DNA of 64,000 nucleotides from Hyphomicrobiales bacterium 4NK60-0047b (GTDB lineage Bacteria > Pseudomonadota > Alphaproteobacteria > Rhizobiales > HXMU1428-3), in the NCBI GenBank assembly GCA_040367435.1, contig BAABWY010000005.1, positions 62,001 through 126,000 of the forward strand. Reading direction: 5' to 3'. The notes beneath the pieces were generated by a model. It saw only the letters and a program-made list of their open reading frames with translations, made no database searches and had not been told where the DNA came from. Positions 6,192 to 6,765 of the stretch are shown here, in pieces. Numbering within the stretch: the first letter of the stretch is position 1; each line of letters starts with the position of its first letter. The position numbers were made by a program, and so were the translations under genes.

Positions 6192-6412
6192 TTCAACCAG
6201 ACACAGATTTTACAAATAGGTGCAACTATGCATGCCGTTATCTTTGAAGTTGAACTGAAAGACGGGAAAAAAGAAGATTATCTTGCTATAGCTACACGCT
6301 TAAGAGAACAATTGGTCACTGCCAAAGGGTTCATTTCAATTGAACGGTTTCAATCTCTGGTCAATGAGGGCAAATTGCTTTCACTTTCTTACTGGGAAGA
6401 TGAAGCCTCTAC

Positions 6413-6467
6413 TTTTTAAGGGCGTTTCTTTTTTCCTAAAACCGGCACCCACTTTTAGGCGAAACGC
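6413..6467 (+). repeat. Palindromic element inserted in a coding region
   Basis: Nested arms GCGTTTC (6422-6428)/GAAACGC (6461-6467) and CCTAAAA (6435-6441)/TTTTAGG (6453-6459), with loop CCGGCACCCAC. From memory, similar short palindromes with AACCGG and CCCACTTTT are common in Rhizobiales genomes; no search was run. It differs from families A and B in this window. Confidence 0.7.
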
Positions 6468-6576
6468 GCAATCCTGGAAAGCGAATTTTGACCACAAGGA
6501 AGCTCAACTCAAAGGTCGCTCTAGTATTTTTAAAGATTATCGCATTTGTGTCGTGAAAGTTGAGCGGGACTATACT

Positions 6577-6617
6577 ATGGCGACCAGTACGATGGCGACC
6601 AGTACGATGGCGACCAG
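6577..6617 (+). repeat. 15 bp tandem repeat, nearly three units
   Basis: The unit ATGGCGACCAGTACG occurs twice in full and then as ATGGCGACCAG. It lies at the 3' end of the broken monooxygenase gene and would add Met-Ala-Thr-Ser-Thr repeats to its original C-terminus. Confidence 0.85.
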
Positions 6618-6765
6618 CGCCCTTTCATCTGCGACGTAAGCTCGCATTTATCCCATAAAACTCTAAGCGTAGGCTCATAAATTACCTAGTTTTTTAGCAA
6701 TTAACCAAGATTATTTTGAAAATATTCACCACTAATTGTCTGTCTTCTCTCTTCGTTCAGCCTGA

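Follow-up and report, generated by a model that had tools for sequence, protein, structure and literature searches.

The CcrM-associated intergenic repeats (CIR) of Caulobacter, Brucella and other alphaproteobacteria were reportedly described by Chen and Shapiro in 2003, and the Bru-RS1 and Bru-RS2 repeats of Brucella are said to have been described by Halling and Bricker in 1994. Dispersed palindromes occur throughout alphaproteobacterial genomes, and rhizobia possess some of their own, the RIME elements. In the portion of a review that concerns them, CIR are about 110 bp long and have two hairpin arms connected through a linker, a GANTC site in a loop and TA termini, and no terminal inverted repeats (TIR) are ascribed to them; their target duplication is tabulated as '?', that is, as unknown, and their mechanism of mobility is left open (PMC2229807). 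The same portion states that CIR were not found inside genes (PMC2229807), and the relevant excerpt of another paper calls them strictly intergenic (PMC10969869). The Bru-RS are presented, in the sections that deal with them, as palindromic repeats of Brucella of 103-106 bp (PMC10800456, PMC2266754). IS711 has been reported to prefer Bru-RS and YTAR targets. The repeat analyzed here lies inside a gene, within a window that comprises the whole stretch of 64,000 nucleotides under study.

This gene opens with an ATG at 6228 and carries an ABM domain (6228-6639, plus strand). Its 5' part (6228-6411, plus strand) is in frame and runs on into an inserted piece, where the upstream frame (6228-6416) is closed after 63 codons by a TAA stop (6417-6419, plus strand); the 3' part (6472-6639, plus strand) is open in frame +1 up to the TAA at 6637-6639. 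The Pfam ABM family (PF03992) matches the first half of the gene with an E of 7.4e-12, and the second half taken alone gave no Pfam match. This ABM match is the sole one in the genome, and 18 of the 41 searched genomes have one. Intact orthologues of 107-110 aa are present in four congeners (G003, G006, G007 and G004), and alignment reveals a net insertion of 55 bases in the window gene relative to all of them. The preliminary description had proposed that a two-armed palindrome separates the ABM halves, shifts the frame and adds a stop, and that a dispersed repeat has landed in the gene; the stop, both pairs of arms, the intact congeners, the net gain and the further copies across the genome bear out both proposals. 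Indeed, the outer arms GCGTTTC (6422-6428) and GAAACGC (6461-6467) pair with each other and enclose the pairing inner arms CCTAAAA (6435-6441) and TTTTAGG (6453-6459), and this exact nested arrangement was found a single time in the window and in none of 20 shuffles. The RNA fold of 6405-6490 is not stabler than that of shuffles (z -0.38). Towards its 3' end, the ABM gene holds three tandem copies of a 15-nt unit (6573-6617) that is single in relatives. One scan with the intact ABM protein placed several proteins of Campylobacterota MAGs (Sulfurovum, Arcobacter) among its closest named relatives, at 66-70% identity, a likeness that possibly reflects lateral transfer or mis-binning.

The boundaries of the insert were placed by comparison with G003, which reads GCCTCTA-TTCTC-TCCTGG, whereas the window has GCCTCTA, then 60 nt (6412-6471), then TCCTGG. 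The alignment puts its gap at 6417-6471 (55 nt), while the piece differing from relatives is 6412-6471 (60 nt, minus strand being the element's own); the 55 bases first attributed to the element thus hold as a net length and not as its extent. Judged from these aligned sequences, the event at the ABM gene was probably a gain of 60 nt and a loss of 5 nt. Across the 96 codons of both ABM halves, no changed codon can be assigned to the window lineage, six being assigned to G003 and five unpolarized. Since neither half carries a substitution assignable to the window lineage, the insertion is recent, and, for the same reason, the cluster of differences at its left edge most likely arrived with it. 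Read along the element strand, the end of the insert directly abuts the beginning of the gene's own TAGAG. The comparison with relatives suggested in the preliminary description thus found the gene intact in four of them and a net difference of 55 bases, with no target duplication readable at the window copy.

A search for further copies, also suggested there, returned 11 other places in the genome at the nucleotide level, the best of them 90% identical to the window insert over 49 bases. At E <= 0.1, a covariance model built on eight copies gave 49 matches, of which two are opposite-strand readings of others, with 150 of the 503 first-look candidates scored. In 30 distinct rows, the positions of both arms pair at 84.6% against 76.4% in shuffled rows and contain 51 doubly changed cells against 20.8, in an alignment that was fitted to the model and therefore favours the structure; structures slid out of register pair at 53% or less in the same rows. 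When 28 of the 30 distinct loci were read further (two array units being omitted), 16 of the 28 ran past the palindrome into a second hairpin. These 16 full copies measure 103-117 nt and consist of two hairpins and a linker between TAGAGC...GCTCTA ends. Their layout is TA-GAGCGTTCC, then hairpin 1, whose core AAAAGTG....CCGGTTTT is conserved, then a linker rich in A, and TAGAGCATTTC...GAAATGCTC-TA, so that imperfect terminal inverted repeats are present, GAGCGTTCC at one end and GAAATGCTC at the other. TA stands at both termini of full copies, and a few copies have mutated ends. A full-length model matched at least 60 places in the genome at E <= 0.01, with 150 of 2943 candidates scored. The window copy has one hairpin only, hairpin 1 with linker and without hairpin 2; the earlier idea that it defines the ends of the element was therefore wrong, since it is half of an element of about 100 bp.

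Units of hairpin 1 also form three head-to-tail arrays that repeat about every 59-60 nt (L052/L054/L062, L057/L060/L068 and L058/L065), located at C4:302752-302929, C7:116128-116304 and C8:85269-85448. These tandem arrays show an additional, local multiplication of hairpin-1 units. In seven of nine longer copies read at other places of the genome (L162-L164, L166, L167, L169 and L170, by eye), hairpin 1 contains a family-A-like hairpin, always at the same position, as would be expected had a composite element spread. The preliminary description had called the element unlike families A and B; its core sequence indeed differs from theirs, but the nested hairpin tempers the separation from family A.

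The repeat is not confined to this genome but is dispersed through its genus and order. Across the order, the full-length model matched at E <= 1e-5 in at least 76 of 199 genomes and at least 44 of 99 genera, counts that are lower bounds because 19 candidates were scored per genome, and copies from other bacterial families retain both ends and core. Named relatives on plasmids come from Rhizobium (282 of 310 records), Sinorhizobium, Bradyrhizobium, Mesorhizobium, Ochrobactrum and others, and the plasmid search gave no relevant match to the window element itself. Furthermore, the alignment of the Rfam family BASRCI27 (Brucella sRNA CI27) to copy L051 spans its two hairpins and scores 40.4 bits, the family cut-off being 59.8. 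Within 1 kb around the window site, the CI27 match has an E of 0.72, which is at chance level and was discarded; it gained meaning only through the full-length copies.

Filled and empty versions of the same site were then compared between G000, the genome of the window, and its congeners. The element is present at L104 in G000 and G003 and absent in G006; L105 is empty in G003; L114 is filled in G003 and empty in G000; L121 is filled in G000 and empty in G003 and G006. TA flanks both sides of at least one filled copy at all four sites. When the possible cuts were scored over 44 flank bases, the cut that keeps one TA tied for best at L105 (4 edits), at L114 (4) and at L121 against G006 (9). For L121 against G003, it scored 3, compared with 1 for another cut of equal net length, and L104 was unsupportive, with 10 edits for a 2-base duplication against 7 for the best cut; a variable ACA run adjoining the element may cause this misfit. 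The net length equals the element plus 2 at three of the four sites, as TA duplication predicts, though TA also ends the element consensus, so that sequence alone cannot separate a duplication from the element end. Three further sites (L106:10695, L119 and L120) were set aside as evidence of duplication, the G003 stretch being decayed, rearranged or unalignable, and at L107 the element is present in both genomes. The full-length copy at L121:15575-15678 (G000 C3:223575-223678) splits a DUF4399 gene (PF14347) of which G003 and G006 have intact versions. Therefore, together with the ABM gene, two genes of this genome have been hit.

The ABM gene was almost certainly broken by an inserted half-copy of this repeat. 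For the family as a whole, transposition with duplication of a TA target may, on balance, be the mode of spread, and the complete explanation, which joins the break by a half-element to MITE-like movement of the full one, is in our view probable. Under this explanation, the full element, TA-GAGCGTTCC...hairpin 1...linker...TAGAGCATTTC...hairpin 2...GAAATGCTC-TA, would be inserted at a TA by a putative transposase acting in trans and perhaps no longer encoded in the genome, and the TA would be duplicated. The target in the ABM gene would have contained TAGAG. The half-copy most likely results either from insertion of the full element and subsequent loss of hairpin 2 between its internal TAGAG and the TAGAG of the gene, or from copying of hairpin 1 through the same microhomology by template switching. 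The full element, as it would have stood before loss of hairpin 2, was not seen at the ABM site in the genomes compared. The four transposase families searched (DDE_3, DUF4096, DDE_Tnp_1 and Y1) gave no match in the genome, and mobilization in trans, by a transposase absent from it or outside these families, is accordingly putative. Among eight genomes of the genus, DUF4096 was found in none, DDE_Tnp_1 (PF01609) in two (G003 and G006) and Y1 in one.

It is possible, if rather doubtful, that template switching or gene conversion in the course of replication, promoted by the hairpin and using the TAGAG microhomology, gave rise to the half-copy without any transposition of the window copy. The insert ends precisely at the TAGAG of the gene, where the full element has TAGAG ahead of hairpin 2, five target bases are gone with no readable duplication, and the hairpin-1 arrays testify to local copying, all of which would suit such an event; however, other sites hold complete elements between TA flanks and are empty in relatives. 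Single-strand movement by a Y1 transposase, without duplication and with the second TA as part of the element, appears unlikely. IS200/IS605 and REP-like elements have two subterminal hairpins, as the repeat does, and the sequence of the sites compared does not show whether the second TA is a duplicate or belongs to the element. On the other hand, Y1 is found in one of the eight genus genomes and not in that of the window, and the element bears inverted repeats at its two ends, as DDE-type elements do. It is highly improbable that the window copy acts as a functional RNA element or as a regulated gene fusion whose product is still made: the compensatory pairing in the arms and the resemblance of full copies to CI27, below the family cut-off, would be in keeping with an RNA, but the fold is no better than shuffles, the window copy itself matches CI27 at chance level only, and an expressed fusion was rejected because the frame is out of phase and contains a stop. 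An artefact is scarcely credible even in a draft of 26 contigs, since gene sequence flanks the insert on both sides within one 290-kb contig and the insert is a coherent family member, distinct and diverged from its best other copy, which also led to the rejection of a sequencing error.

Returning to transposition of the full element at TA, the GANTC site deserves attention. Among the copies of the genome, 2 of 27 have it (one of the two in the linker alone), whereas elsewhere 15 of 21 do, the shuffled expectation being 3.4 in both cases; these counts omit L147 and L159-L161 from other genomes and the congener loci L132-L136, and keep the congener locus L146 (G007) among the 21. The window as a whole has 0.56 GANTC per kb, where base composition would predict 3.7, and seven control patterns range from 2.2 to 5.1. 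We would tentatively suggest that the two-hairpin repeats of Hyphomicrobiales, of the CIR / Bru-RS type, could constitute a superfamily of TA-duplicating MITEs that continue to move, can hit genes and are mobilized by a non-resident transposase, and that the GANTC (CcrM) site was shed in this genus with mobility kept. If this is true, the CcrM methylation site is not needed for mobility. With GANTC lost in nearly all copies of this genome, mobility is uncoupled from the proposed link with CcrM. The insertions within genes, at sites that are empty in several relatives, delimit the element and provide data on the proposed TA-target mechanism; they also show that dispersed alphaproteobacterial palindromes can inactivate genes.

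A literature search with the letters of the element gave no match among open-licence PMC papers, and known systems were compared by description. In the part of the review that treats them, RUP of Streptococcus pneumoniae are 107 bp long, insert at TA and are thought to be moved in trans, much like the present repeat, but belong to an unrelated host and have a known partner, IS630-Spn1 (PMC2229807), whereas DDE_3 was not found in the genome here. The RPE of Rickettsia are likewise presented there as palindromic repeats within protein-coding sequence; their peptides, however, are fused in frame (PMC2229807), whereas here the frame is broken. RIME, Sm-repeats and the AB/C palindromes of Sinorhizobium/Rhizobium, in the excerpt describing them, are intergenic rhizobial palindromes (PMC2573895), and the present repeat is also carried by Rhizobium and Sinorhizobium plasmids. 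The Bru-RS share the size of 103-106 bp and the repeated palindrome and, with BASRCI27 as an indirect link, are probably the Brucella counterpart of the repeat; no DUF4096 (IS5-type) match occurs in the eight genus genomes. With CIR, as portrayed in the passages available, the repeat has in common a length of about 110 bp, two arms with a linker, TA termini and dispersal in alphaproteobacteria. It differs from them in its inverted terminal ends and probable TA duplication, as against no TIR and a duplication marked '?', and in its presence inside two genes, as against a purely intergenic location. Since the GANTC site and the exclusively intergenic location both fail in this genome, the repeat is a variant of the CIR kind and not a member.
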